In this document: positions 7,945 through 55,662 of the stretch, piece by piece | Layout: every line of letters begins with the position of its first letter | Position numbering within the stretch: the stretch's first letter is position 1 | NCBI GenBank assembly: GCA_024742285.1 | Contig: JANSYR010000004.1 | Span: forward strand, 1 to 64,000 | Length of the DNA: 64,000 bases | DNA from: a bacterium | Lineage (GTDB): Bacteria > Myxococcota_A > UBA9160 > UBA4427 | Direction of reading: 5' to 3' | The notes under the pieces: generated by a model | Database searches by the model: none | The model's input: only the letters and a program-made list of their open reading frames with translations | Told to the model about the DNA's origin: nothing | Translations under genes and position numbers: made by a program

Positions 7945-9129
7945 TTGTCGGATCCGGGACCCGAGAGCACGATCGACGCCTCCTCGAGAGAGGCGAGCGA
8001 GCCGAGCGAAGAGAGCGAGCCGCGCGACGTCCCGATCGTCTGGCTGCTGATGGGCAATCGCGCCGGAGACAACTCCCAGGTGCAAGGCCTCGGTGAGGCA
8101 CTCGGCTGGCCCCTCGTCGAGAAGCACTTCGAGTTCCAACCCTGGGAGAAGGCGGTGAACCTGCCCTGGGGCGCCCACCTGCTGGGCATCAAGCGGGACC
8201 GTTCGACCCCCATGTCCGCGCCCTGGCCGGACCTCGTCATCTCCGCGGGACGCAAGAACGAGCCGATCGCGCGCTGGGTTCGCGCCCGGGCCCTCGCCGA
8301 GGAGGGCAAGCGGACCCGCCTGATCCACGTCGGGCGCCCCTGGGCCGCGCCGCCGAACTGGGACCTCGTGATCACGACGCCCCAGTACCGCCTGCCCCAC
8401 GACCCGAACATCCTCCACAACGAGACTCCGCTCCACCGCGTGACCCGCCCCCGCCTCGACGAGGACGCGCGCAAGTGGGCGGATCGCGTGTCCCACCTCC
8501 CGAAGCCCCTGATCGCCGTCCTGTGCGGTGGCAACTCCGGGCCCTACCCCTTCGACCGCGCCTCCGGCGAGCGCCTGGCCGCCGCGGCGGATGCCCTCGC
8601 GAGCGAGTTCGGCGGATCGCTGCTCGTGACGACGAGCAAGCGCACGCTGCCGGAGACGACCGAGGCGCTCTTCGAGGGGATCCAGTCGCCGTCGATCCTC
8701 TACGACTGGAAGCCCGACGACACGGACAATCCCTTCTTCGCGTTCCTGGGACTCGCGGACCGGGTGATCGTGACCGCGGACAGCGTGTCGATGATGACCG
8801 AAGCGTGCGTGACGGGGCGCCCGGTCTATCTCTATGACACCGGCGAAGGGATGACCTCGATGAAGGAAAACCCCTGGCTCGACGGCGAGGCGGGCCACGA
8901 GGCGGGCGATCCGAAGCTGGGGCTCTCACGCTGGCACCTGAAGGCGCACATCTATCGCCTGACGATGCGCATGGGTCCCCAGCGCCTGACCCGCGACATC
9001 CGGATCGTCCAACAGCTGCTGATCGACACCGGTCGCGCGGTCTGGCTCGGCGACGGACACCCGGACGCGGAGCCGGAGCCGCTGCGCGACATGGAGCGGG
9101 CGGTCGCGGCGGTCAGGGCGCTCTTCTAA
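7945..9129 (+). CDS. ELM1-family (mitochondrial-fission ELM1-like) protein, copy A
   Basis: This 394-residue protein belongs to the ELM1/DUF1022 family, named after a plant mitochondrial division protein; bacterial members are uncharacterised. Visible hallmarks are LLMGNRAGDNSQVQGLGEAL near the N-terminus, PDLVISAGRKNEP, LIHVGRPW and the C-terminal VIVTADSVSMMTEACVTGRPV, which resembles a nucleotide-sugar-type GT-B site. A GT-B-like enzyme acting on envelope lipids is a plausible role but not shown. The TTG at 7945-7947 is chosen because the first ATG lies inside the conserved LLMGNR strand. It lies 107 bp after the LptFG gene on the same strand and may be co-transcribed. A second copy is at 10269-11402. 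Confidence 0.85.
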   Translation: MSDPGPESTIDASSREASEPSEESEPRDVPIVWLLMGNRAGDNSQVQGLGEALGWPLVEKHFEFQPWEKAVNLPWGAHLLGIKRDRSTPMSAPWPDLVISAGRKNEPIARWVRARALAEEGKRTRLIHVGRPWAAPPNWDLVITTPQYRLPHDPNILHNETPLHRVTRPRLDEDARKWADRVSHLPKPLIAVLCGGNSGPYPFDRASGERLAAAADALASEFGGSLLVTTSKRTLPETTEALFEGIQSPSILYDWKPDDTDNPFFAFLGLADRVIVTADSVSMMTEACVTGRPVYLYDTGEGMTSMKENPWLDGEAGHEAGDPKLGLSRWHLKAHIYRLTMRMGPQRLTRDIRIVQQLLIDTGRAVWLGDGHPDAEPEPLRDMERAVAAVRALF

Positions 9130-9139
9130 TCCGCCGCCT

Positions 9140-9193
9140 GCGGGCGCTCGCCGGGTCGCCGCCGGCCGCGGGCGCTCGCCGGGTGACCGCCGG
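9140..9193. repeat. Two 26-bp direct repeats between convergent genes
   Basis: Units at 9140-9165 and 9168-9193 begin GCGGGCGCTCGCCGGGT and end CCGCCGG. They differ at only two positions and have a 28-bp period. They fill the gap between the convergent stops of ELM1 copy A and the glycosyltransferase-like gene. There is no T-run, so this is not a classical terminator. Confidence 0.7.
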
Positions 9194-9202
9194 TCGAAGG
9201 CG

Positions 9203-10138
9203 CTAGGCCGCGAGGGGCTCCACGCGGTCGAGCACCTCGAAGGCGTCGTGGCGGACGTGGTTGCGGTCCATCTCGTCGCGCAGGAAGTCCTCGGAGACGA
9301 TCCCCTTCTCGACGCACTCGCGGAGGAGGCCGAAGAAGAAGTCTTCCTGGCGCTTGTCCGGATGGCTCTTGTAGTCGGGGACGAAGGCGTAGTCGCCGAA
9401 GAACTTGCGGCGCGCGCGCAGCACCCAGCGCATCGGCGGGAAGAACTTCCACTTCTCCGCCGGCACGTAGTCGGCGGGCAGGCCGCTCTTCCAGGGCTGC
9501 GTCCGTCGCTTCGTATTGTGGATCAGCTTCGTCTTCTCGGTGAGCCGATCGAAATCGTTCCACTCGTGCTCGAAGAGACCGATCTTCGAGCGGTCCTCCT
9601 TCTTGAGCCCGATCCAGTCCTGGTAGTCGAGCTCGCGGCGGAAGAGCGAATCGAACTGCTCGCGCACCTTCCAGTGGGTGAGCTGCGCGCAGTCCAGGAG
9701 CATGACGCTCGTCGCCAGGATGCCCTCGAAGCCCTTGGCCCCGGAGCGCGGGCGACACACGATCCTATTGCCTTCCATGTCTCGGTTCAGCAGCTCGTTC
9801 ACGTCGCCCACGGCGAAGACGTCCGGGTCGGTCACGACCGCGCGGCCCTGGTAGCCCATCAGCTCCGGCGGCATGAAGCGCAGCGGCGTGAAGGACTGCA
9901 GATCCTCGTTGTGCCAGATCCGCGAGGCCCCGTCGCGCAGATAGGGTCGCCCTTCGTACTCCGCGAACCACGGGTAGTCCTGGTGGCGGATCAGGTGGAC
10001 GTCGAACGCGTCGGGGTCGCTGGAGTTGCGCTTGAGCGCGTACTGCCCGACGAGCGCGCCGACCATCTGGCGGTGATTCGTGTGGATGAAGACGTTGGGA
10101 CGGCTCGAATCGATCGCCGCGCTCGGTTCCGTGTTCAT
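9203..10138 (-). CDS. Putative GT-A-like glycosyltransferase
   Basis: This 311-residue protein has an N-terminal Rossmann-like strand (NVFIHTNHRQMVGALVGQYA), an acceptor-recognition-like middle and RAVVTDPDVFAVGDVNELL, where DPD sits like the metal-binding DxD motif of GT-A glycosyltransferases. The EHEWNDFD and LIHNTKRRTQPW segments later in the protein also resemble family 8-type or capsule transferases. I cannot assign a CAZy family from sequence alone. There is no signal peptide or TM segment, so a cytosolic role at the inner face is likely. The ATG at 10136-10138 is clear. It lies downstream of ELM1 copy B by 130 bp on the same strand. The sandwich between two ELM1 genes suggests a shared glycan or glycolipid pathway. 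Confidence 0.6.
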   Translation of the reverse strand: MNTEPSAAIDSSRPNVFIHTNHRQMVGALVGQYALKRNSSDPDAFDVHLIRHQDYPWFAEYEGRPYLRDGASRIWHNEDLQSFTPLRFMPPELMGYQGRAVVTDPDVFAVGDVNELLNRDMEGNRIVCRPRSGAKGFEGILATSVMLLDCAQLTHWKVREQFDSLFRRELDYQDWIGLKKEDRSKIGLFEHEWNDFDRLTEKTKLIHNTKRRTQPWKSGLPADYVPAEKWKFFPPMRWVLRARRKFFGDYAFVPDYKSHPDKRQEDFFFGLLRECVEKGIVSEDFLRDEMDRNHVRHDAFEVLDRVEPLAA

Positions 10139-15109: not shown

Positions 15110-15919
15110 ATGATCCGGAAACGACGATCCACACGCGCCTGGCGCATTCTCCTCAAGGCGATCGCGCTCCTCTGCACGACGGCCGCCCCGGTGCTGGCCG
15201 GGGACGGTCGAATCGAGATCAACCAGGCGCGGGCCCTCGCGGGCGGCGTCAGTTCCAGCGACGCGCCAGGCTTTCCGGTCACGCTCGAATCCCAACGGAG
15301 CTACGTCCTGACCAGCAGCCTCTACGTGCCGGCCGCGACCCCGGGCATCCAGTTCCCTGCGAGCAGTGAAGGCATCAGCCTGGACCTGAACGGCTTCACG
15401 GTCGAGGGTCCGGTCGCCTGTACCGGTACACCCGTCAGCTGCAGCGCCCGCGGGGTCGCCGACGGAATCCGAGCGCACAGCGCCAAGGACGCCACGATCC
15501 GGAACGGGAACATTCGTGGCTTCGACGGCAGCGGCGTCGAAGCCTTGTTCGCGTCGGGGCTCACGATCGAATCGCTTCGCGTCCGGAGCAATGCCGGGGA
15601 CGGGCTGAGGCTGGGTGGGACGGTCACCGTTCGCGATTGCGCGCTCGTCCTCAACGGCGAGAGCGGCCTTCAGTCCGTCGGAGCGGGCGGCAATCTCAGC
15701 GGGCTCCACGCGGTCGACAACGGCGACATCGCCATCGACCTCGGCTCTGGCGACGGTGGAATTCTGAGCGACAGCTGGATTTTCTCGACCGGAACCGCGC
15801 TCCGGATCGGGAGCCTCTCCTTCTTCGGCTACCGCGACAACTCGATCCAGGGCGCCGTCTCGGGCTCGACGGGCAACCTCGGCGGAAACATCTGCAACGG
15901 GTCGCCGACGTGTCCGTAG
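15110..15919 (+). CDS. Exported right-handed beta-helix protein
   Basis: This 269-residue protein has a signal peptide (LLKAIALLCTTAAPVLAG) and a body of short repeating rungs (ATIRNGNIRGFDGSGVEAL; LTIESLRVRSNAGDGLRL; VTVRDCALVLNGESGLQSV). That is the signature of a parallel beta-helix like pectate-lyase-type or NosD-like proteins. The N-terminal ITLDLNGF-like motif (ISLDLNGFTVEG) is typical of bacterial surface beta-helix proteins. No catalytic residues are identifiable, so adhesion or glycan binding is as likely as lyase activity. The ATG at 15110-15112 directly precedes the basic n-region. Its 3' end overlaps the start of the next gene by 10 bp. Confidence 0.78.
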   Translation: MIRKRRSTRAWRILLKAIALLCTTAAPVLAGDGRIEINQARALAGGVSSSDAPGFPVTLESQRSYVLTSSLYVPAATPGIQFPASSEGISLDLNGFTVEGPVACTGTPVSCSARGVADGIRAHSAKDATIRNGNIRGFDGSGVEALFASGLTIESLRVRSNAGDGLRLGGTVTVRDCALVLNGESGLQSVGAGGNLSGLHAVDNGDIAIDLGSGDGGILSDSWIFSTGTALRIGSLSFFGYRDNSIQGAVSGSTGNLGGNICNGSPTCP

Positions 15920-16788
15920 GGCCGACGAAGGCGCGAAGACGAGACAGGCTGACCCTTTTCGCCGTCGGCCTCGTCGGTGCCGCCTGGTCGCTGACCGCGC
16001 TCGCCCAGCCGCCGACCGCCTACGACACGACCCTCCTCCTGGGCGCTTCGCCACCCATCCTCGTCGAGGACGAGGACGTCGTCGCGTTCTCCCCATCGGG
16101 TCCCGTGGTGCTCGCGGACCTGCCGCCCCTCCCCGCGAATGCGGGGCTCAACGCGTTCGAGCGCGACGGACCGGACGTGCTCTTCAGTCTCGACGTGACG
16201 GCGATCGTCGAGGGCACGACGATCGAGCCCCGGGACGTCGCGCGCTGGAACGGTTCGGCGTTGAGCCTGGAGATCGACGGAAGCGCAGTCGGCATTCCGG
16301 ACGGGATCGAGATCGACGCCGTCGCCCTGTCGCTCTCGACGGGCAACCTCCTGATCTCGATCGACGGCACCGCGCTCGTCGGACCGGTGACGGTCGAAGA
16401 CGAAGACCTCCTGCGACCCGCCCCCGCTCCTCTGATCGTCTTCGACGGGTCCGCCGAGGGGATCGACCCGGCGCTCGACCTGAACGGCTTCGGTCTGCTG
16501 ACGCCGACGCTCGGGCTCCTGACCTTCGACGGCAGCGGCCAGGTCGATGGCATCGACTTCGACGACGAAGACCTCCTCGCCTGGGACTTCACCACTGGAG
16601 CGTTCACCCTCTACCTGGACGGATCCGCCCTGCGCCCCGCCACCCCGGCCGCGGACGTCCAGGCCGTGCCGGAGCCACTCGTCGGTCGGATGACACTGTG
16701 GGGTGTACTCGCGCTCGCCTCGCGCGGGCTCAGGAAGCGGGTCGCCGAACGCCGACGGGCACACCTAGCCGGCGTGCGAAGCGGCTGA
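15910..16788 (+). CDS. Exported DGS-repeat protein with degenerate PEP-CTERM tail
   Basis: This 292-residue protein has a GTG start overlapping the previous gene, a signal peptide (LTLFAVGLVGAAWSLTALAQ), and about three diverged repeats of roughly 60-70 residues built on V/F-DEDLL, L-x-FDGS and LLISIDGT-like elements. The C-terminus reads VPEPLVGRMTLWGVLALASR followed by a basic stretch, a weak PEP-CTERM signal whose hydrophobic helix is short. It is likely a surface protein sorted like its neighbour. No enzymatic motif is visible. Its last 59 bp overlap, tail to tail, the 3' end of the BTAD regulator on the other strand, so the basic tail is encoded in shared DNA. Confidence 0.72.
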   Translation: MSVGPTKARRRDRLTLFAVGLVGAAWSLTALAQPPTAYDTTLLLGASPPILVEDEDVVAFSPSGPVVLADLPPLPANAGLNAFERDGPDVLFSLDVTAIVEGTTIEPRDVARWNGSALSLEIDGSAVGIPDGIEIDAVALSLSTGNLLISIDGTALVGPVTVEDEDLLRPAPAPLIVFDGSAEGIDPALDLNGFGLLTPTLGLLTFDGSGQVDGIDFDDEDLLAWDFTTGAFTLYLDGSALRPATPAADVQAVPEPLVGRMTLWGVLALASRGLRKRVAERRRAHLAGVRSG

Positions 16789-19700
16789 GGTCCGCGCCGA
16801 TCGGCAGCCCCGCTTCCTCCAGACGACGAAGCCCGAGCTCGACGACGGCGCGCGCGCTCCTTCGATCCCCTTTCCGGAAGTACGCGATCGCCTGGAGTCG
16901 GTAGGCATCCTCGGCGAGCTCGTCCTCGGCCAGCGCCGCTTCCAGCCAGCGATGGGCCTCTTCGAACCGTGACCGGCCTACGAGCAGGCCCGCGGCGCGA
17001 ACGCAGCCGGCGATGAACCTCGCCCGAAGGCGCACTCGCTCCATCTCGCCCCAGGACGCATCCGGCGCGTCCGACAGGAAGTCGCCGCGGTAGAGGGGCA
17101 AGGCCGACTCGAGCGCCGCCAGCGCGGCGGCCGTGCGCCCCGCGCGATCGAGTCGCTCCGCATGGTCGAGCCCCTTCTGGAACTCCTCCGAGTCGACCAC
17201 GAGCCAGCTCCCCGACTCCAGCCGGATCGAGCCCGATTCGGAGCGCACGAAGTACGGAGGCGCATTCGACTCCCGGGCCGGCTCGAGGGCGTTGATCAGG
17301 TGGTTGAGGTTGACGCGCAGATTATTCGATGCCGCCGGGCCGTCGAGCTCCGGCCAGAGGGCGTCGGCCAGCTCGTCACGCGAAGCGCGCCCCTTCCAGG
17401 CGAGGCGCTGCAGGAGCGCACGGACGCGCTGGCGGGCCAACGCCGGGTGCTGGACGATCACGCCGTCGCGTCGGACCTCGAGCGGACCCAGGAGGCCGAT
17501 CGAGAGTCGCTCGCTCGGCCTTCTCGGCGTCTCGCCGAGGATTCTGCGCGCGAGCGCCACGCGCGGCTGGTCCTCGGACCGGGTACCGAGACGATTCGTC
17601 AGCTCGGAGAGCGCCGCGCGTCGTCGACCCGCAACGTCGCGCGCAATGTCTTCCGCTGGACGTTGCCCCGCGGTCGCGGCCGCGAGTGCGAGCTCCAGCA
17701 CGAGATCGGGCACCAGAAACGACCGGAACAGCTCGACCCGGCCCCAGTCCAGGGCGGTCGCCGGCCCCGCGTCCCCTCGCTCTCGCAGGGCGACCAGGGC
17801 TCTCGCGGCCTCCAGCCCCCTCGCATAACACGGCCCGACCGGGAGCGCGTCGATCTCGTCGCGCGCGTCGGGAGCGAGCACGTAGAACTGCGGCAATGCT
17901 CGGAGGGAGTGGCGGTTGTAGCGCGCCTCCTCGGGCGCCTCGGCCGACGCGGCGGCGAAGAGCGCTCTTCCGTCCTCGCCACGCCCCTCGGACACCGCCA
18001 CCATCATCTGACCCGCGGCCACCGCCAGTGCCGCTCGCGGGCCGAGTCCATCGTGCGAATCCAGCGCCACGCCGGCCATCAGCTCGCGCGCGACGCTCTC
18101 CAATCCGGCGGCCGCCGAAAAGAAGGCAACGGTCGAGCGGAGCACGATCGAGTTGTGCAGATGCCCTGCGTCCTCGTTCGCGACCTCCCCCGACAATCGC
18201 TGGAGCGCGCCTTCGTCCAGGCGCCCGAGCAATCCGCGCGCTTCGAGCCGCGAAGCGCGAATCGACGCTCTGATCACGTGCGGGAGCTGCTCGTCCTCGT
18301 CGACGGAGATCCGCAACGCCCGCTCCGGCTCTCCAGCGTCCAACGCGGCGATGAGCAGCGTCGAGTCCATGATCGGGCGCAGCTCCGCGACGGAATCCCG
18401 CGCCGCATCGAGCCGCGGCAACGCTTCCGCCGCTCGCCCTTCGAGCAGCGCGGCCGTCGCGAGCGAGGACCTGGCCAGCCCCTCCCGGGAGGGATAGTCG
18501 AGCTCGAGCACCAGAGCCGCCACCTGTCGAAGCAGCACGCCGCTTCCCGCGAAGAAGCCCAGCATCGCCATCGCGTTCAGCGCACCCACCTCGAGATCGG
18601 TCTCAGCGCCCGCACGAAAATCCTCTCGTGCCTGGACGATCAATGGAAAGGCGCCCTCCGGATCGAAATGGATCCGGAAGACCCCCTCGACGAAGCGTCC
18701 GACCGCACGCGCTCGCGTCGCTTCGGATCGGGACCGGACGAGCGCCTCCAGGTCGGCGGTGGATGCGCGCAACCAGCGGGACACGCCCGCGAATCGCGAG
18801 ACGACGGAATCGACCTGCGACTCACTCCCGACGCGTTGGGCGAGCTCGAGCGACTCTCGGTGGAACCCCTGCGAAGACAGCCACTCCACCGCGGCATCCA
18901 CGCTCGCGGGATCCCACTCGGCGTCGATCGTTCGAAGCGTCGGTTGCCAGAGGGCGTGCAGGCGCCGCTCACCCCGCTCACCGGTCGACACGAGCGGCAT
19001 TCCGTCGAAGAGCTGCTCCGCCGTCATCGCCGAACCGGCGACCCCCGCGACACGGGCATCGTCGACCCAGTCGAGGTCCACGAGGCGCGCGAGCGCGCGG
19101 AGACGAGCGGGGTCGATCGCCGAGAGCACCTCTTCCCAGAGATAGTCGCCCACGCCGGATGCACCGACCGCAGCAGCCAGCTCGAGACCCGCTGGCCACC
19201 CGCCGAGGCCGCTGTCGCCGTCGAGACCGCGATCCGCGAGGAAGCGCGAGCGCTCCTCCTCGTCGAAGGCCAACGCCTCGTCGTCGAGGGTGGTGACCTC
19301 CCCCGCCGCGATCCAACGCGTGATCGCGAAGGGAAGACTGCCTCGTGTCGCGAGCACCAGGTGGCCGTTCTCCGGCAGGACGTGGAAGAGCGACTCCAGG
19401 AGACGTGCGCCCGGGGTCCCTGCGCCCAGTCGGTGCGCATCGTCGAGCACGAGCGCAACGTCGTTCGGACTGCGGCGCCAGATCGCGTCGGCGGCCGCCT
19501 CGACGACGTCGCGACCATCGTCCTCCAATCCGAACACCGCGCGAAGCGCGCTCGCCAGGGAGCGCTCCCCTTCATCCGACGCGCGGCAGCTCAGCCAGAC
19601 GTCGATCCCGGCAGGATCCTCGCGATTCGCCTCGAGCGCCTGCGAGAGCAGGATCGTCTTTCCGAACCCGGCGCCCCCGCGCACGACCGTCAGCTTCCGG

Positions 19701-38900: not shown

Positions 38901-39736
38901 CCCGCCTCTTCGAGGAAGGCGATCAACGCGTCACCGAATGCGTCCGCCGAGTCCAGCATGATCGAGTGCCCGGCACGCTCGAAGACCCTCGTCTGCGCTG
39001 AGCCGCCGGCGCGGCGCATCATCTCCTCGCAGGTCTCGGCCGACAGGATCGACGAGAGCGCGCCCCGCGCCACGAAGATCGGCAGCCGGAGGCCCTGGTA
39101 GGTCGCCCAGAGTCGCGCCGAGGTCGCCTCGCTCGAAGGGGTCGCCGCCGCCGTCACGAACGCCGGATCCAGAGCGGGCTCGAAACGGCCGTCGAGTCGA
39201 CGCGCCAGACTCGCCTCCACCAACCGCGCGAGCGAATCCGCTTTCGCGAAGGGGTGCACCCTGGCCAGGATCCGCGCGTATTCGTCGACCGATTCGTACA
39301 CGCGGAACGTGTCGGCGACTTCCCCCAGGACGGCGCCCGCCCCATCCGCGCCGAGGGTGGGCCCGATGTCGACGAGGGTGAGCGAGCGTGCGTGCGGTCC
39401 GAGCCGTTCCGCGGCGATCATCGCGACCTGCCCCCCGAGCGAATGCCCGACCAGATGCACACCGGTCCCGCCCTGGGATCGCACGACCGCCTCGAGGGCC
39501 GCAGCCATCCGATCGAGCCCGTAGTCCGGCTCGGCCGACCAGGGCGACTGGCCATGTCCAGGCAGGTCGATCGCGATCGGTCGGAAGCGATCGGGGAGCG
39601 ACGCCACCGCGACGTCCCAGACCGCATGGCAATGGCCGAAGCCATGGACGAAGACGACGGGCTCCCCGGCGCGTCGCGGATCGAAATGCGCGATCGAAGC
39701 CGGCTGGCTCTCGGAAGCGAACCCGGCCACGCTCAT
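38897..39736 (-). CDS. Alpha/beta hydrolase coupled to PKS
   Basis: This 279-residue alpha/beta hydrolase has the oxyanion strand VVFVHGFGHCHAVWD, nucleophile elbow VHLVGHSLGGQVAM (Ser in GHSLGG), an acidic residue region and the catalytic His in ERAGHSIMLD. Its ATG at 39734-39736 overlaps the PKS stop (ATGA), so it is translated from the same message. A role as an external thioesterase/hydrolase that releases or edits the PKS-bound acyl chain is likely, because the PKS lacks a terminal TE domain. Esterase action on another substrate cannot be excluded. Confidence 0.88.
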   Translation of the reverse strand: MSVAGFASESQPASIAHFDPRRAGEPVVFVHGFGHCHAVWDVAVASLPDRFRPIAIDLPGHGQSPWSAEPDYGLDRMAAALEAVVRSQGGTGVHLVGHSLGGQVAMIAAERLGPHARSLTLVDIGPTLGADGAGAVLGEVADTFRVYESVDEYARILARVHPFAKADSLARLVEASLARRLDGRFEPALDPAFVTAAATPSSEATSARLWATYQGLRLPIFVARGALSSILSAETCEEMMRRAGGSAQTRVFERAGHSIMLDSADAFGDALIAFLEEAG

Positions 39737-42700
39737 CGATCCGCCCCTTCACCGGCATCGTCGATCCGATCCGCCAGCGCGCCGGCGATCTCCGACAGCG
39801 AAGGAAGACCCTCGAACCAGTCCCGCTCGATCTCGAGGGAGAGCGATCGGGAGAGCCCGACGAAGAGCTCCATGGTCATCAACGAGTCGAGACCGAGGGC
39901 ATCGAGACGACGGCCAGGCTCGAGCGCTTCGACCTGCGTCTCGTCGAGATCGAGGACCGTGGCCAGCTCGTTCGTGACGAGTCCGAGCGTTGCTTCGCGA
40001 CGCTCGGCGATCGACATGCGGGCCAGCTCCTCCCGGGAGTGCCCCCGGCTCGCGACCTCACGCGGCGCCCCGTCGCCCGCGACGGGGCTCTGCCAGCGCG
40101 CCGCATCCTCGGGATCGATCCAGGCGAGGGACGGGTGTGCCTCCGCCTCGACCGCTCTCGCCACGACGTCGACGAGGCGATCGAGGGTCGCCTCGCCGTC
40201 GATCGAGAGATCCGTCCAGCCCATCCACGCGTCCTCGGATCGCGCGAGCAGGTCGATCAGGAGTCGCCCCTCCCAGGCTCGATCCTCCGCCGGCACGCCG
40301 ACGGCGGCCGGGCGCAACGAGACGAAGAGCGTCCGCTCGGCCCCCCTACGCGCGAGCGCGTCGCGCCGGGCCGCGCGACCGGCCGCGTCTCCCCCGTCGA
40401 AGTGGACCCGCACGCCGCGCAGCGCCCGCGTCGGGTTCGCCGAAGCGACGTCGTCGGCCTCGACGCCGCGACGGCGGAACGCCTCGACGAAGTCGCGGGT
40501 CGACGACGGGCCGTGGGCCGAGACGAGCAGCCGACGCGTCTCCCCATGCATTCGAGACGACGGACGAATCGACGCCTCCGCGGCGGACTCGAAATCGAGG
40601 CAGACCCGGCCCACGTGGCGGCCCTGCGCGGCGTGACGGAACGCGCGCGCGCATTCCCCGACCGGAAAGACGACCCTCGGCGGCGGCTCCAGGGACTCGC
40701 GGGCCGTGGCGGCGAATCTGGCGAGGGACTCGGCGACCCAGTCCGCGTCCTCTTCGACGAGCGAAACCAGATCGCAGCGGCTGAGGCTCGCGTTCGCCGG
40801 CAGCTCGAGGGCTTCACTCCCCGGCGTCGCGCGGAGATCGACGAAGCGACCGAAGGACCCGAGGCGCCGCGCGAGGGCGCGCAGCCCGGCGCCCGACGCG
40901 TGCGAGACGATCACGTCGAAGCTCCCCTCGTCGTCGTCGCCACGCCCGTAGGCCAGCGCCCCCCGTCGACGCACCCCCGCGACGAGCGCATGTCCGACGC
41001 CCCCCCGACCGGCATCGACGTACACGCGCTCCCCGGCCTTCAAACCGACGACGCGGTCGAGCACATGATCCGCCACGACGGTCGGGAAGGTGGCCGAAGC
41101 CAGCGCGACCGGATCCGCCGCGCCGGAGACGCGCGCGACCCGCGCGGCGGGAACGCGCAGCCTGCGCGACATCGCCCCCCGGACGAGCCCGACCACGCGA
41201 TCCCCGATCGCCACCGAGGTCACCTCCGGCGCCACCCCGAGGACGCGCCCACAGAAATCGAGACCCAAGGCCGCGGGACCGGCGTCCCGATCGTCGAGCT
41301 CGGCGAGCACGTCGACCCGCGACAGCCCGGCGGCTTCGACTTCGATCATGACCTCGCCCGGACCCACCGCCGCCTCCGTCGCTTCCGTCCCTTCGATGGC
41401 CTGGAGCGCGACTCTCGAACCAAAGCTGCGTGCTGGCGTTCGCGCCACACGGAAGTCGGTCTCCGCCGCGCGGGTCCCCGACGCCTCAGAGCCCCCGACC
41501 GCCGCCGGATCGACGAGTCTCGGAACGCGAACGACGCCGGATCGGACCGCCAACCACCGGTCTTCGATCGAGCGTCCGAGCAGTCCCACCAGACGGGAAC
41601 GATCGGCAGCGTCCGCTGCGGCGCTCGCATCGAACACGCGACACCGATCGAGCTCCACGGCGTTGGTGAACTGTTCGATCTCCTTCGAGACCGATCGGGC
41701 GATCGGACTGCCCGCCCGTTCCTCCGACTCGACGGGCAGCAGCCCCCGGGTCGCGATCCAGATCTCCGCCGCGTCGGCGGTGACGGATCGGATCGATTCG
41801 GCCCAGGACCCTACGCGGTAGTCGCGGTGGAGGCGCGGTTCGCGGTCGCCGTCCGAGGGCGCGGCTCCCCAGGCGAGCAGCACCAGTCCCCAGGCCGAGT
41901 CATCCGATGCGCGCATCAAGGGCGCGAGCATCTCGAGGTCCTCGATCTTCGGACAGAAGCGGCACTCGTCCCCGCGCTTGCGGAGCTCGGAGGCCAGGAG
42001 CTCCGCGCGGGACGCGTCGTCGGACACCACGAGCCATCGACGGATCCCCGGCTCCGCGCCCTCCGCTCTCGAGGCCACCTGCGGCTCGAGCGCTCGCCAG
42101 GCGAGCGCCAGGGGAGCGTCCGTGGCGACCCCGGGCGAATCGATCGCGCCGCGCACCTGCGTCCGAACGCCGACCATCTCGGCGAGCACGTTTCCGTCCC
42201 GATCCTGGAAGGCGAGATCGAAGACGGGGGCGTCTCGTGTCGAGTCCGAAGTGTCCTCGTCGCGCCGCTCGACGCGACACCAGACCTCACTGCCGAGCTT
42301 CCCGAGAAGACGGATCCGTTCGACCGAGACGAGCTCGACGCTCGGGCCCGCGATCGCCGCACCGACTCCCTGCAGCGCCGCCTCGACGAGCACGGGATGA
42401 GCATGATAGGCGTGCCACTCGGACTCGATGCTCCGGGAGAGCAGCAGGCGACCGACGAGCACCCTTCCGTCGTCGCGCGCCGGCCGTCGGAGCTCCTTCA
42501 ACGCGCGAGAGCGGCGACTCGTCTCCACACCGGCGCGAGCGAGTCCCTCGTCCACGCGCTCCGCCTCGAGCACTTCCCCGTCCTCGGCGGAGAAGGGCGC
42601 GCCGATCTCCGCAGGCTCGGCTTCCCTTGCACGAAGCATCGCCGTCGCGTGGCGCGTCCACTCCGCCCCGGCGCGATCGGCGCGGCTCGACACGATCAGC

Positions 42701-45700
42701 TCGAACTCCTCGCCGCGCGGGCGGGCCACGAGCTGCAAGCGCCGGCGACCGGTCGCGCCGAGCGTGAGCGGCGCCTCGACGCGCAGGCCGTCGATCGGAC
42801 CTGCGCCGGCCGGCTGCAGACGCTCGGAGGCCGCGATCGCCAGCTCGAGGAAGATCGACTCGAGCACGACGGTCTCGCCGGCCACCCGACGATCCGCCAC
42901 GAACGCCGCCGTATCGGCGTCGAGGAGGGTCTCCCACAGCTGCACGCCCGGATCCGTCGAAGACTCGACCGGGGAGCCGAGCAGCGGGTGGGTCGGGCGG
43001 TCGCGGTCGAGTCGCGTGCGCTCGGAGAACCAGTAGCGGGTCCTCTGATAGGGATAGAGCGGAGTCGAGACGACCCGTCCGGACGGACCGAAGCGGGCGA
43101 AGTCGACCTCGACGCCCGACGTGAAGAGCGCCGCCACACAACGGGCGAGGGATTCCATGGCAGGCTCTTCGCGCACCAGCGACCCGACGAAGCCGAGCGC
43201 ATGTCCGGCGTCACGGCCGGTCTCGTCGATGGCGCGGGCGAGGGTCGGATGGGGCGAGATCTCGAGGAAGACCTCGCCGCCCTGCTCGGCGGCCGCGCGC
43301 ACCGCGTCGTCGAAGGCGACCGCGCGGCGCAGATTTCGGACCCAGTAGTCCGCATCGAGGACGGGCGGTGCCCCGCCCTCTCCGTCGACCGACGAATGGA
43401 TGGGAATGTCGGATGCCCGCACGATGAGGCGGTCGAGGTCCGCTCGGAAGTCGTCGACGAGGGGATCCATGTGGAAGCAATGCGACGCGAAGTCGACGTC
43501 CAGGAGCCGCGCGAACTCGCCTGCCGCCTCGCGTGCCGCAACGAAGGCCCGGACGCCCTCACGATCGCCGGACACGATGGTCGTTCGCGGCGAGCTGACC
43601 CCTGCGATCTCGACCCGTGACCCGTCCGAAGCGGCCTGCTCGGCATCGAGCCACCCCTGAACCGCGTCTCGCGAGGCCGCCACGACCGCCATCGCCCCCG
43701 CACCGCTCGCCCGCGCGACCACGCGTCCGCGAACGCAAGCGAGTCGCGCGACGGCGTCCACGTCGAGCGCTCCGGCCACGAAGGCCGCGGCGATCTCGCC
43801 CATGCTCTGACCGACGACGCGATCGGGCACGACGCCGAAGCTCCGGAGCAGCTCGGCCAGAGCGATCTCGAACGCCACCAGAACGGGTTGGAGCACGTCG
43901 AGGGGCCAGCCCTCGGCGTCGTCGGTGGACTCGAGGATCGACCGGAGCGACCAGTCGACGTGGTCACGGTAGGCCGCGTCGAGGACGTCGATCACCTCTG
44001 CGAAGACCGGCTCCTCCCGAAGCAGGTCGCGGCCCATCCCGACCCACTGCGCGCCCTGGCCGGGGAACACCATCACGAGCTGCGGGCGGCGGTCCGTCGG
44101 CGCGACGCCCTGGAGCGCGTCCCTGGGCGTGTCCCCGGCGAGCGTCGCATCGAGCACCTCGCGCAGCGCCGCGGGCGACGACGCGCGGAACGCGGCGCGG
44201 TGCGCACGCCGATCTCGCTTACACGCGTAGGTGTAGAGCAGATCGTCGAAGGCGGACGCCGGCGATCCTGCGAGGTCCGGATCGTCGAGTCGCGCGCGCG
44301 TCGCTTCGATCATCTCGCGGAGCGCACGGGGATGGTGGGCCGAGAGGGCGAGCACCCGTTCGCGGGTCGGCGGGCGGGAGGCCTTCGGTGTCGCGCGTTC
44401 CGGCGGGCTCTCGAGCACGACGTGGGCGTTCGTCCCGCTGATCCCGAAGCTGTTCACGCCGACGAGCGCCGGGCCCGGCTCGGGCCAGCCCGTCGTCTCG
44501 TCCTGCACGCGAATCGGAATCTCGTCCCAGGGAATCGTCGGGGTCGGCGTCTCGAAATGGAGCTGCGCGGGCAGTGTCCGATGGCGGATCGAGAGACACG
44601 CCTTGATCAGCCCCGCGACCCCGGAGGCGGACTCCGTGTGTCCGAGATTGCCCTTCACCGACGCGACGCGCAGCGGCCGCTCCGGATCCCGTCCCGGCCC
44701 CATGACGTCGGCGAGCGCCCCGATCTCGACGGGATCTCCGATCGCCGTCCCGGTTCCGTGCGTCTCGACGTACTGCACGCGCGCCGGCTCGACGCCGGCC
44801 TGCGCATAGGCGTCGCGCATGGCCTGGGCCTGACCGAGACGACCGGGCGCCATCATGTGCCCGCCGTCGCGCCCGTCCGAGCTGATGCCGCTCCCGCGGA
44901 TCACCGCGTAGATCGGGTCGTCGTCCGCGAGTGCGTCGGATACGCGCTTGAGCAGCACGACGCCCGCGCCTTCGGCCCGGACGAACCCGTCGGCGTTCGC
45001 GTCGAAGGCGCGGCAGGCGCCGGACCTCGAGAGCATGCCGCTCCGACTGAGCGCGATGTTGCCCTCCGGCGAAAGGAAGAGATTCGCGCCGCCGGCGATC
45101 GCCAGATCCGCCTCGCCACGACGAAGACTCTGGCAAGCGAGATGCGTGGCGATCAACGACGACGAGCAGGCGGTGTCCAGGGTGAAGCTCGGCCCGGTCA
45201 CGCCGAGCAGAAACGCGATCCGGCCGGAGAGCACGGCGTGGGACATCCCGCCGACGGTGAACACGTCGTGACCACGGAAGACGTGCTCTTCGCCGAGGAC
45301 GCCCGTGCGCTCCCGCGAGTAGTCCTCCGCCATGTAGCCGAGGATCACGGCCATGCGCTTCCCGGCGACGGAAGACGGCGGAATCCCGGCGTCCTCGAGC
45401 GCGTCCCAGGTCACCTCGATCATCAGCCGCTGCTGCGGATCCATCGTGACCGCGTCCCGCGGCGCCAGGCCGAAGGGCTCGGGATCGAAGAGCTCCGGGT
45501 GCTCCAGGAAGCCGCCCTTCTTCGACGAGATCCGGCCGGGCACGCGGGGGGTCGGGTCGAAGAAGTGATCGAGGTCGTAGCCGAGCGCGACGCGATGGGC
45601 CGGGGCCTCCCGGACCGTGTCGCGTCCGGAGCGGACGATGTCCCAGAACTCGGCGGGGCCGCGCGCGTCCGCGTAGCGACAGCCGATTCCGACGATGGCG

Positions 45701-45759
45701 ACGGGCTCGTCCGGGCTCCGGGGCGCGGGCGACGAGCTGCCCGCTTGCTTCGAACTCAC
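39733..45759 (-). CDS. Type I polyketide synthase, KS-AT-(DH)-(ER)-(KR)-ACP with decayed reductive domains
   Basis: This is a single 2008-residue module. KS at about 17-450 is intact: C198 in DTACSSSL, H334 in VETHGTGT, H374 in KGNLGHTES. AT at about 560-860 is intact: S652 in GQSMGE and H760 in FASH, nearest to the YASH of methylmalonyl-type ATs. DH at about 922-1205 has lost its catalytic His (HxxxG position is R957 in ADRRVAGETVV) and the paired Asp (E1126 in HPVLVEAAL). ER at about 1440-1722 keeps GGVG but is about 40 residues short in its cofactor half. The KR position, 1740-1890, has no TGGxGxxG and no Tyr. ACP Ser1959 lies in LGLDSL. There is no TE. The start is GTG at 45757-45759, overlapping the lipocalin stop. 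Confidence 0.93.
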   Translation of the reverse strand: MSSKQAGSSSPAPRSPDEPVAIVGIGCRYADARGPAEFWDIVRSGRDTVREAPAHRVALGYDLDHFFDPTPRVPGRISSKKGGFLEHPELFDPEPFGLAPRDAVTMDPQQRLMIEVTWDALEDAGIPPSSVAGKRMAVILGYMAEDYSRERTGVLGEEHVFRGHDVFTVGGMSHAVLSGRIAFLLGVTGPSFTLDTACSSSLIATHLACQSLRRGEADLAIAGGANLFLSPEGNIALSRSGMLSRSGACRAFDANADGFVRAEGAGVVLLKRVSDALADDDPIYAVIRGSGISSDGRDGGHMMAPGRLGQAQAMRDAYAQAGVEPARVQYVETHGTGTAIGDPVEIGALADVMGPGRDPERPLRVASVKGNLGHTESASGVAGLIKACLSIRHRTLPAQLHFETPTPTIPWDEIPIRVQDETTGWPEPGPALVGVNSFGISGTNAHVVLESPPERATPKASRPPTRERVLALSAHHPRALREMIEATRARLDDPDLAGSPASAFDDLLYTYACKRDRRAHRAAFRASSPAALREVLDATLAGDTPRDALQGVAPTDRRPQLVMVFPGQGAQWVGMGRDLLREEPVFAEVIDVLDAAYRDHVDWSLRSILESTDDAEGWPLDVLQPVLVAFEIALAELLRSFGVVPDRVVGQSMGEIAAAFVAGALDVDAVARLACVRGRVVARASGAGAMAVVAASRDAVQGWLDAEQAASDGSRVEIAGVSSPRTTIVSGDREGVRAFVAAREAAGEFARLLDVDFASHCFHMDPLVDDFRADLDRLIVRASDIPIHSSVDGEGGAPPVLDADYWVRNLRRAVAFDDAVRAAAEQGGEVFLEISPHPTLARAIDETGRDAGHALGFVGSLVREEPAMESLARCVAALFTSGVEVDFARFGPSGRVVSTPLYPYQRTRYWFSERTRLDRDRPTHPLLGSPVESSTDPGVQLWETLLDADTAAFVADRRVAGETVVLESIFLELAIAASERLQPAGAGPIDGLRVEAPLTLGATGRRRLQLVARPRGEEFELIVSSRADRAGAEWTRHATAMLRAREAEPAEIGAPFSAEDGEVLEAERVDEGLARAGVETSRRSRALKELRRPARDDGRVLVGRLLLSRSIESEWHAYHAHPVLVEAALQGVGAAIAGPSVELVSVERIRLLGKLGSEVWCRVERRDEDTSDSTRDAPVFDLAFQDRDGNVLAEMVGVRTQVRGAIDSPGVATDAPLALAWRALEPQVASRAEGAEPGIRRWLVVSDDASRAELLASELRKRGDECRFCPKIEDLEMLAPLMRASDDSAWGLVLLAWGAAPSDGDREPRLHRDYRVGSWAESIRSVTADAAEIWIATRGLLPVESEERAGSPIARSVSKEIEQFTNAVELDRCRVFDASAAADAADRSRLVGLLGRSIEDRWLAVRSGVVRVPRLVDPAAVGGSEASGTRAAETDFRVARTPARSFGSRVALQAIEGTEATEAAVGPGEVMIEVEAAGLSRVDVLAELDDRDAGPAALGLDFCGRVLGVAPEVTSVAIGDRVVGLVRGAMSRRLRVPAARVARVSGAADPVALASATFPTVVADHVLDRVVGLKAGERVYVDAGRGGVGHALVAGVRRRGALAYGRGDDDEGSFDVIVSHASGAGLRALARRLGSFGRFVDLRATPGSEALELPANASLSRCDLVSLVEEDADWVAESLARFAATARESLEPPPRVVFPVGECARAFRHAAQGRHVGRVCLDFESAAEASIRPSSRMHGETRRLLVSAHGPSSTRDFVEAFRRRGVEADDVASANPTRALRGVRVHFDGGDAAGRAARRDALARRGAERTLFVSLRPAAVGVPAEDRAWEGRLLIDLLARSEDAWMGWTDLSIDGEATLDRLVDVVARAVEAEAHPSLAWIDPEDAARWQSPVAGDGAPREVASRGHSREELARMSIAERREATLGLVTNELATVLDLDETQVEALEPGRRLDALGLDSLMTMELFVGLSRSLSLEIERDWFEGLPSLSEIAGALADRIDDAGEGADR

Positions 45760-54453: not shown

Positions 54454-55662
54454 CTAGCGCAGCTCTTCCGGGGTCTGCTTCGCCATGTGATGGCCGGCGA
54501 CGAGGGCGAGGATCGGGCGCGTCGTCAGGCGATAGGCGGCGTTGGCGCGGATCCAGTTGAACCAGCCGGCGATCACCGACGGCTGCTCGCCGAGGGAGCG
54601 CAGGCCGAGGGCCGCGACTTCGTCCGCGTCGGCGCCACCGTGCGCGATCTCGCCGGCGACCTCCTGGAACTCGGTCTCGACGGTGCCGGGCTCGAGGACG
54701 AGGACGTCGATGTTGCTCGCGCGGAGCTCCACCCAGAGCGCTTCTCCGAGTTGTCCGTCGAAAGCCTTCGTCGCCGCGTAGACCGCGTGGAGCGGGAGCG
54801 GCTGTCGCCCGGCGACGGAGCCGGTGAAGAGGACACCGCCCCGGCCGCGTTCGCGCATCCCCTGCACGAACGCGTGGGTCAGGACGAGAGGCGCCTCGCA
54901 GTTCACCGTCACGAGACGGCGGAGTCGTTCGCCGTCGAGCAGATCGAAGCGTCCCGCGTAGCCGAGCCCCGCGTTGTTCACGAGCAGACCGATCTCGAGA
55001 TCGGAGACCGCTTCGACGAGCGCCGCCGCACCGCCGGCCTCGGCGAGATCCACCGCCACGACCCGGGTCTCGATCTCGTAGTCCCGCTCGAGCTCCGTCG
55101 CGAGACTCTGGAGCCGGTCCTCGCGCCGCGCGCTCAGCACGACGTTCACGCCGTCGGCGGCGATCTGCCGCGCGAGGGCCGTCCCGATCCCGGCCGAGGC
55201 CCCGGTCACGAGCGCCCAGTCGCCGTAGCGCGCGCGGAGCGCCAGCGGCTTCGGGTCGAAATGCTCGCGGTGCGTCCAGAACGCCCAGGTGAGCGCCCCC
55301 ATCGGCAGTGCGGGGAAGATCCCGACGATGATCCCCGAGAAGCCGCCGGTCTCGAGCGCCGTCCAGAGATAAAGACCGAAGGCGACCTGCGCCGTGTAGG
55401 CGGGCGCCCAGAAGGACATCCACGGGCGACGGCGGCGGAAGCCGTAGACGGCAGCGCCGTATACGAACCAGTGGGGCACGGCGAGGATCTTGGCCCAGAT
55501 GCCGGTGAAGAGGATCCCGAACCAGACCTCCTGGTCGACCTCGACGGGCTTCACGAAGAGATCCCACGGCATGTAGACGAAGGCCATGTACGCGCAGAAG
55601 ACCATCACCGCGTTCATCCACCACGGACGCTCGCGGAAGACGTCGAACAGCCACTCGCGCAT
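54454..55662 (-). CDS. SDR oxidoreductase with N-terminal membrane domain
   Basis: This 402-residue protein has residues 1-145 carrying about four TM helices ([75 protein letters not shown]). Residues 147-402 are a classical SDR with TGASAGIG (153-160), NNAG in LLVNNAGLG, and catalytic YxxxK in [10 protein letters not shown] after a Ser in GSVAG. It probably oxidises or reduces a lipid substrate at the membrane. The ATG at 55660-55662 has AGGAGA 5 bp upstream. It lies divergent from nothing nearby and downstream of the histidine kinase by 62 bp. Confidence 0.86.

Follow-up and report, generated by a model that had tools for sequence, protein, structure and literature searches.

A MAS-like type I polyketide synthase with decayed DH, ER and KR domains in a conserved cassette with a Lipocalin_5 protein and an alpha/beta hydrolase

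The window, i.e., the whole stretch of 64,000 nucleotides that was analyzed, encodes a large type I polyketide synthase (PKS) on the minus strand. The gene is a single frame with a GTG start, unbroken over 6 kb as the preliminary description had it. It is the middle member of a tight three-gene operon in which a gene for a Lipocalin_5 protein comes first and a gene for an alpha/beta hydrolase comes last, with a 4-bp overlap at each junction (Table 1). The KS, AT, both halves of DH, two halves of ER and the ACP were identified above the Pfam cut-off; a Pfam scan of the PKS returned no match to KR. The three-gene cassette, the pseudo-KR and the apparent retention of DH and ER (and not KR) as folds are absent from the preliminary description.

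Table 1. Genes of the operon and domains of the PKS, with positions in the window.
Feature	Position	Strand	Remarks
Lipocalin_5 (PF13924) protein, 146 aa	45756..46196	-	Operon gene 1; overlaps PKS start by 4 bp; Pfam E 1.7e-26
Type I PKS, 2008 aa	39733..45759	-	KS-AT-DH(relic)-psiKR-ER(relic)-KR(relic)-ACP
KS, residues 18-450	44410..45708	-	C198/H334/H374 intact; Pfam E 9.5e-85
AT, residues 560-890	43090..44082	-	S652 (GQSMGE), H760 (FASH); Pfam E 1.8e-75
DH relic, residues 915-1205	42145..43017	-	R957/E1126 replace His-Asp dyad; fold predicted intact
Pseudo-KR, residues 1206-1440	41440..42144	-	Between DH and ER; non-catalytic
ER relic, residues 1441-1735	40555..41439	-	About 31-34 residues gone from cofactor half; catalytic Lys region gone
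KR relic, residues 1736-1925	39985..40554	-	Lacks Gly motif and Tyr; fold of low confidence
ACP, residues 1926-2000	39760..39984	-	S1959 (GLDSLM); Pfam E 2.9e-7
Alpha/beta hydrolase, 279 aa	38897..39736	-	Operon gene 3; overlaps PKS stop by 4 bp; Pfam E 7.5e-24

A frame of 1410 codons is open on the plus strand opposite the PKS (39388-43620), and comparable antisense frames occur in two related loci (L009, L016). Such plus-strand frames, which reach at most 1410 codons, were set aside as genes and are ascribed to GC-rich codon usage. A second large PKS is encoded in the same genome (G000:C2:446525; positions 6304-12975 of L116). This one is read as KS-AT-KR-DH-ACP-TE in a frame of 2223 codons; many of the family's genomes encode relatives.

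The catalytic residues of KS, AT and ACP are all present, and the residue numbers originally given for them are right. Alignment to the DH of CurK bears out the replacement of the DH His by Arg and of the DH Asp by Glu. R957 falls on the His mutated in the deposited H996F structure (5tz5), and E1126 on the Asp for which chain 5tz7 has Asn; thus, these positions are the catalytic ones. The Glu is not fixed, as an orthologue with 80% identity has Asp at the same position. The DH relic matches intact DH with an hhalign E-value of 3e-24 and passes the Pfam cut-off, as does the ER relic, for which the match to intact ER is at 1e-54. The ER relic is 295 residues long, compared with 317-338 residues in most homologues. 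Its gap, put at about 40 residues in the preliminary description and measured here as ~31-34, lies between GALAYGRGDDDE and GSFDVIVS. The stretch that bears the Lys in CurK and MAS is absent, along with part of the cofactor fold, so the shortening and the loss of the closing Lys region both stand. The Rossmann glycine motif of ER, a GGVG-type loop, still looks usable in the window PKS and in four relatives (L012, L016, L015 and L115).

The KR stretch (residues 1740-1890) contains neither TGGxGxxG nor any Tyr, as had been noticed. It aligns to an intact-KR profile over 34 columns only, in the first beta-alpha unit (E 2e-4). Given that ER also matches the KR profile, at 5e-5, this hardly beats a generic Rossmann match. 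A profile of the same stretch from ten relatives matched no solved KR. Thus, the claim that all three reductive domains are recognizable holds for DH and ER, by Pfam and hhalign, and barely for KR, in which ~34 residues match KR profiles. Judged from the sequence, DH and ER have decayed in place and KR is nearly erased. A KR cofactor site might have lain elsewhere in the PKS; the only regions of this kind found are the Rossmann regions of the pseudo-KR and ER, and neither has KR catalytic residues. MAS-type enzymes also carry a non-catalytic pseudo-KR between DH and ER. In three relatives (L014, L015 and L136) the pseudo-KR is deleted or much shortened.

The best solved matches of the AT are mostly methylmalonyl/ethylmalonyl-type ATs, and FASH occurs where those have YASH. 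Given this relationship, use of branched extender units is likely, and the extender is probably methylmalonyl-like. The interface motif of the KS (YMAE/HTAE/HMIE-like) is nearer to the LTHE of MAS than to TNGQ or VMYH, which are found in KSs accepting beta-hydroxy or enoyl chains (PMC12370991).

Homologues were sought in a scan of ~85,000 genomes and in the genome's own family, and a lipocalin-guided search was added. We identified one orthologue with 80% identity, and others, full-length or partial, with ~40-56%. The lipocalin-guided search yielded a locus from another family of the same order (G076). Wherever a homologous locus covers the region, the lipocalin gene precedes the PKS and the hydrolase gene follows it; these loci span two families of one order. 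The cassette is kept while the flanking genes change. A survey of 379 genomes of the phylum placed the PKS-type lipocalin in this order alone. In the same genomes, the PKS-linked lipocalins form a close set, with E-values below 1e-50 except for one damaged copy, and generic lipocalins match at ~1e-25 and weaker. In one subgroup, genes for a TetR regulator, a sulfotransferase, an SDR and a weakly DUF1214-like protein lie beside the cassette (L115, 1427-5845; the same neighbourhood is seen in L014, L015 and L135). One MAG contig (L034) is titled Rhodococcus sp. and is assigned by taxonomy to Cyanobacteriota, likely a labelling slip.

Across 11 PKSs, the catalytic residues of KS and AT are invariant, and the ACP Ser is present in all ten sequences readable at that position. 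Frames of ~1,800-2,200 codons without stops are open in nine other loci from several genera. The KR glycine/Tyr motif occurs in none of the 11; only L136 retains the ER Lys position and only L012 the DH His. At the DH His position the 11 PKSs read Arg, Arg, His, Leu, Arg, Tyr, Tyr, Ala, Cys, Ala and Ala, and at the DH Asp position Asp or Glu. The variety of replacements for His suggests an early loss of DH function followed by separate drift in each lineage. In a KS-AT tree the 11 PKSs form one clade (SH-aLRT 100). The adjacent PKSs, from Streptosporangiaceae and a Chitinophagales MAG, have motif-intact KR and DH (L017 and L019) or, in the Chitinophagales MAG, motif-intact KR, DH and ER (L023). 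As a single clade adjoins PKSs with intact domains, the loss of the reductive domains is derived and old. Relatives across one order share both the loss and the two neighbouring genes; thus, we conclude that this is an established enzyme type rather than a dying gene. Sequencing error or a local frameshift was rejected for the same reason, that relatives share the same state.

Two genomes hold incomplete versions of the cassette. In G019 (L135, G019:C90) the PKS-type lipocalin is intact (8837-9322) and the PKS and hydrolase genes have been cleanly lost before the next gene; the lipocalin may serve a purpose there independently of the PKS. In G024 (L138, G024:C63), which is of the same genus as the source of the window, only PKS residues 17-166 are represented (15550-16965), and the lipocalin match is split between two frames.

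Between the window PKS and the orthologue with 80% identity, dN/dS is 0.041 for KS, 0.22 for AT and 0.15 for ACP. Values for the other domains are 0.35 (DH), 0.17 (pseudo-KR), 0.29 (ER) and 0.37 (KR), and those for the operon partners are 0.085 (lipocalin) and 0.29 (hydrolase). The pair L011/L013 is broadly similar, with the lowest value for KS and 0.10-0.19 for the relics, at synonymous sites that are near saturation. The relics are much looser than the KS of their own protein. As a control, another PKS with intact-looking motifs in the same two genomes gave 0.34 for KR, 0.28 for DH and 0.20 for KS; these values being similar, constraint on the relics is about equal to that on intact-looking KR and DH domains. 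The relic domains are under purifying selection. This, the relic state shared by orthologues and the invariant residues of KS, AT and ACP sustain the claim that the protein is still selected.

The region from residue 915 to 2008 was modelled from a ten-member alignment, with moderate overall confidence (mean pLDDT 69.6, pTM 0.40). The predicted DH and most of the predicted ER have pLDDT values mostly of 75-92, and the KR relic mostly of 36-55. The predicted DH fits the DH domains of CurF/CurK at a TM-score of 0.85, and the solved structures that best match the relic-region model come from the DH-ER-KR part of MAS-like PKSs. The MAS dimer, as seen by cryo-EM, has KS-KS', DH-DH' and ER-ER' interfaces (PMC12370991). 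Because the folds of these MAS interfaces appear to be kept, while KR is lost and the pseudo-KR is lost or shortened in three members, a scaffold role is favoured, and we infer that DH and ER could serve to hold the dimer. New roles for the relics, which had been raised as an alternative, gain no support where catalysis is concerned: we saw no conserved new polar cluster in these domains in the family alignment, and no invariant column in the KR stretch across the family.

The Lipocalin_5 assignment of the first protein is secure (93.2 bits against a PF13924 cut-off of 25). It is predicted to form an eight-strand barrel, for which lipocalin-family proteins scored best among solved structures, albeit modestly; a sequence search of the PDB gave no real match. 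A literature search for a lipocalin-like protein associated with a PKS found no matching system. The protein may bind or cyclize the product. Three hydrolase residues conserved in the family (S99, D123 and H257) all align with the closest solved relative, 3kxp. These residues likely form the catalytic triad, and the enzyme is probably responsible for product release. The acid, D123, lies 24 residues beyond Ser99, apparently after the sixth strand, an arrangement shared with 3kxp; Ser, Ala or Gly occupies the more usual later position.

We consider it probable that the protein is a MAS-derived, non-reducing type I PKS in which DH and ER are kept as scaffold and a beta-keto or pyrone-type product passes to the lipocalin and the hydrolase. 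An extender unit, probably of the methylmalonyl kind, would be loaded by KS, AT and ACP and joined to an acyl starter over one or a few condensation rounds. With KR erased, keto groups would stay unreduced, so that DH and ER would be left without substrate and their active sites would drift. Their folds would persist owing to their role in keeping the dimer together and bearing the ACP. An unreduced beta-keto chain is expected because KR, DH and ER seem unable to work. The beta-keto or pyrone-type product could then be handed to the Lipocalin_5 protein, for binding or for help with cyclization, and the alpha/beta hydrolase would release or hydrolyze it. In AviM with the PT His replaced, the KS-AT-PT-ACP protein still makes a pyrone, which forms by itself (PMC9135731). 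The minimal KS-AT-ACP machine with large structural relics proposed in the preliminary description fits this scheme and is supported by the relic state seen clade-wide among orthologues. A bolder version, in which the Lipocalin_5 protein would serve specifically as a polyketide cyclase or carrier and the DH-ER body, now emptied, would be a holding chamber for the unreduced chain, is unlikely. If true, loss alone, together with two helper genes, would have converted a reducing megasynthase into a non-reducing one.

Reduction could instead be supplied in trans, by a free-standing SDR or a FabG/FabI-type enzyme that acts on the ACP-bound chain to give a reduced product. L115 and L016 have SDR genes with KR-like Pfam matches directly next to the cassette, and related genes are found in L014, L015 and G019; trans reduction is possible in the SDR-adjoining relatives (L014, L015, L115 and L016). 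However, the window operon has no reductase gene, and the nearest predicted SDR-like gene is ~8 kb away (54454-55662). The neighbouring SDRs are also not one close orthologous set (~32% identity between those of L016 and L115), and G019 keeps its SDR though its PKS and hydrolase are gone. Overall, we regard this explanation as unlikely. Some reduction might also persist within the relic domains via substitute residues, for example if the Rossmann fold of ER, with its retained glycine loop, binds NADPH. ER acts after KR and DH, however, and both lack catalytic groups; moreover, the Lys position remains only in L136 and the window PKS has lost a piece of the cofactor half. Given the absence of KR, residual reduction is highly unlikely.

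The DH relic may alternatively be a product-template (PT)-like cyclase that shapes a poly-beta-keto chain, as in AviM and CalO5. The predicted integrity of its fold is consistent with this, and the PT of the AviM type is a DH-like fold in an iterative PKS that has no KR (PMC9135731). AviM requires the catalytic His (PMC9135731), however, and the His shared by PT and DH is absent in 10 of the 11 PKSs, where Arg, Leu, Tyr, Ala or Cys is found; no other residue was seen to be newly conserved in its place. With this His gone, such a cyclase is quite unlikely. The last explanation, a pseudogene on its way out, draws on the PKS fragment and split lipocalin of G024 and on the losses in G019. Against it stand the long open frames of the other loci, the low dN/dS of KS and the invariance of the KS, AT and ACP residues, and on account of this conservation we judge it very unlikely indeed. 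We thus favour the non-reducing PKS with a DH/ER scaffold.

Single dead reductive domains are common in PKSs. In the present clade, DH, ER and KR are dead together in an intact chain of 2000 residues with DH and ER folds under selection, which provides a good natural test of non-catalytic dimer scaffolding. For such proteins, a Pfam domain count would point to a reduced product, although the product is probably unreduced. The three-gene cassette, with its Lipocalin_5 protein and hydrolase, marks a small, apparently unstudied pathway.

In PKSs of the LovB/LovC type, an inactive ER remains in place and LovC is the trans-acting ER partner. The window PKS likewise carries an inactive reductive domain in place, but in LovB only the ER is inactive and its partner is known, whereas no reductase is co-encoded in the window operon. 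The closest single domains by profile are those of curacin CurK and CurF (DH, E 3.8e-41; ER, E 1.5e-67), in which DH and ER are active and part of a modular assembly line. The bacterial orsellinic acid synthases AviM and CalO5 (KS-AT-PT-ACP) resemble the window PKS in being one-module enzymes with intact KS, AT and ACP, no KR and a DH-like domain that, here by prediction, does not dehydrate. AviM, however, keeps the His and is compact, without ER or KR, whereas the window PKS lacks the His and has remnants of both. MAS and MAS-like PKSs (PDB 9d2y, 5bp4) share the one-module order KS-AT-DH-psiKR-ER-KR-ACP on one chain, with KR a remnant here. MAS is the best full-length solved match (E 3.6e-205) and the best fold match of the relic region, and its KS Cys-His-His, AT Ser-His and ACP Ser are all present in the window PKS. 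Unlike MAS, the window PKS lacks the DH His-Asp dyad, part of the ER cofactor half and the ER Lys, and the KR GGxGxxG and Tyr/Asn, and it is encoded in a stand-alone three-gene cassette.
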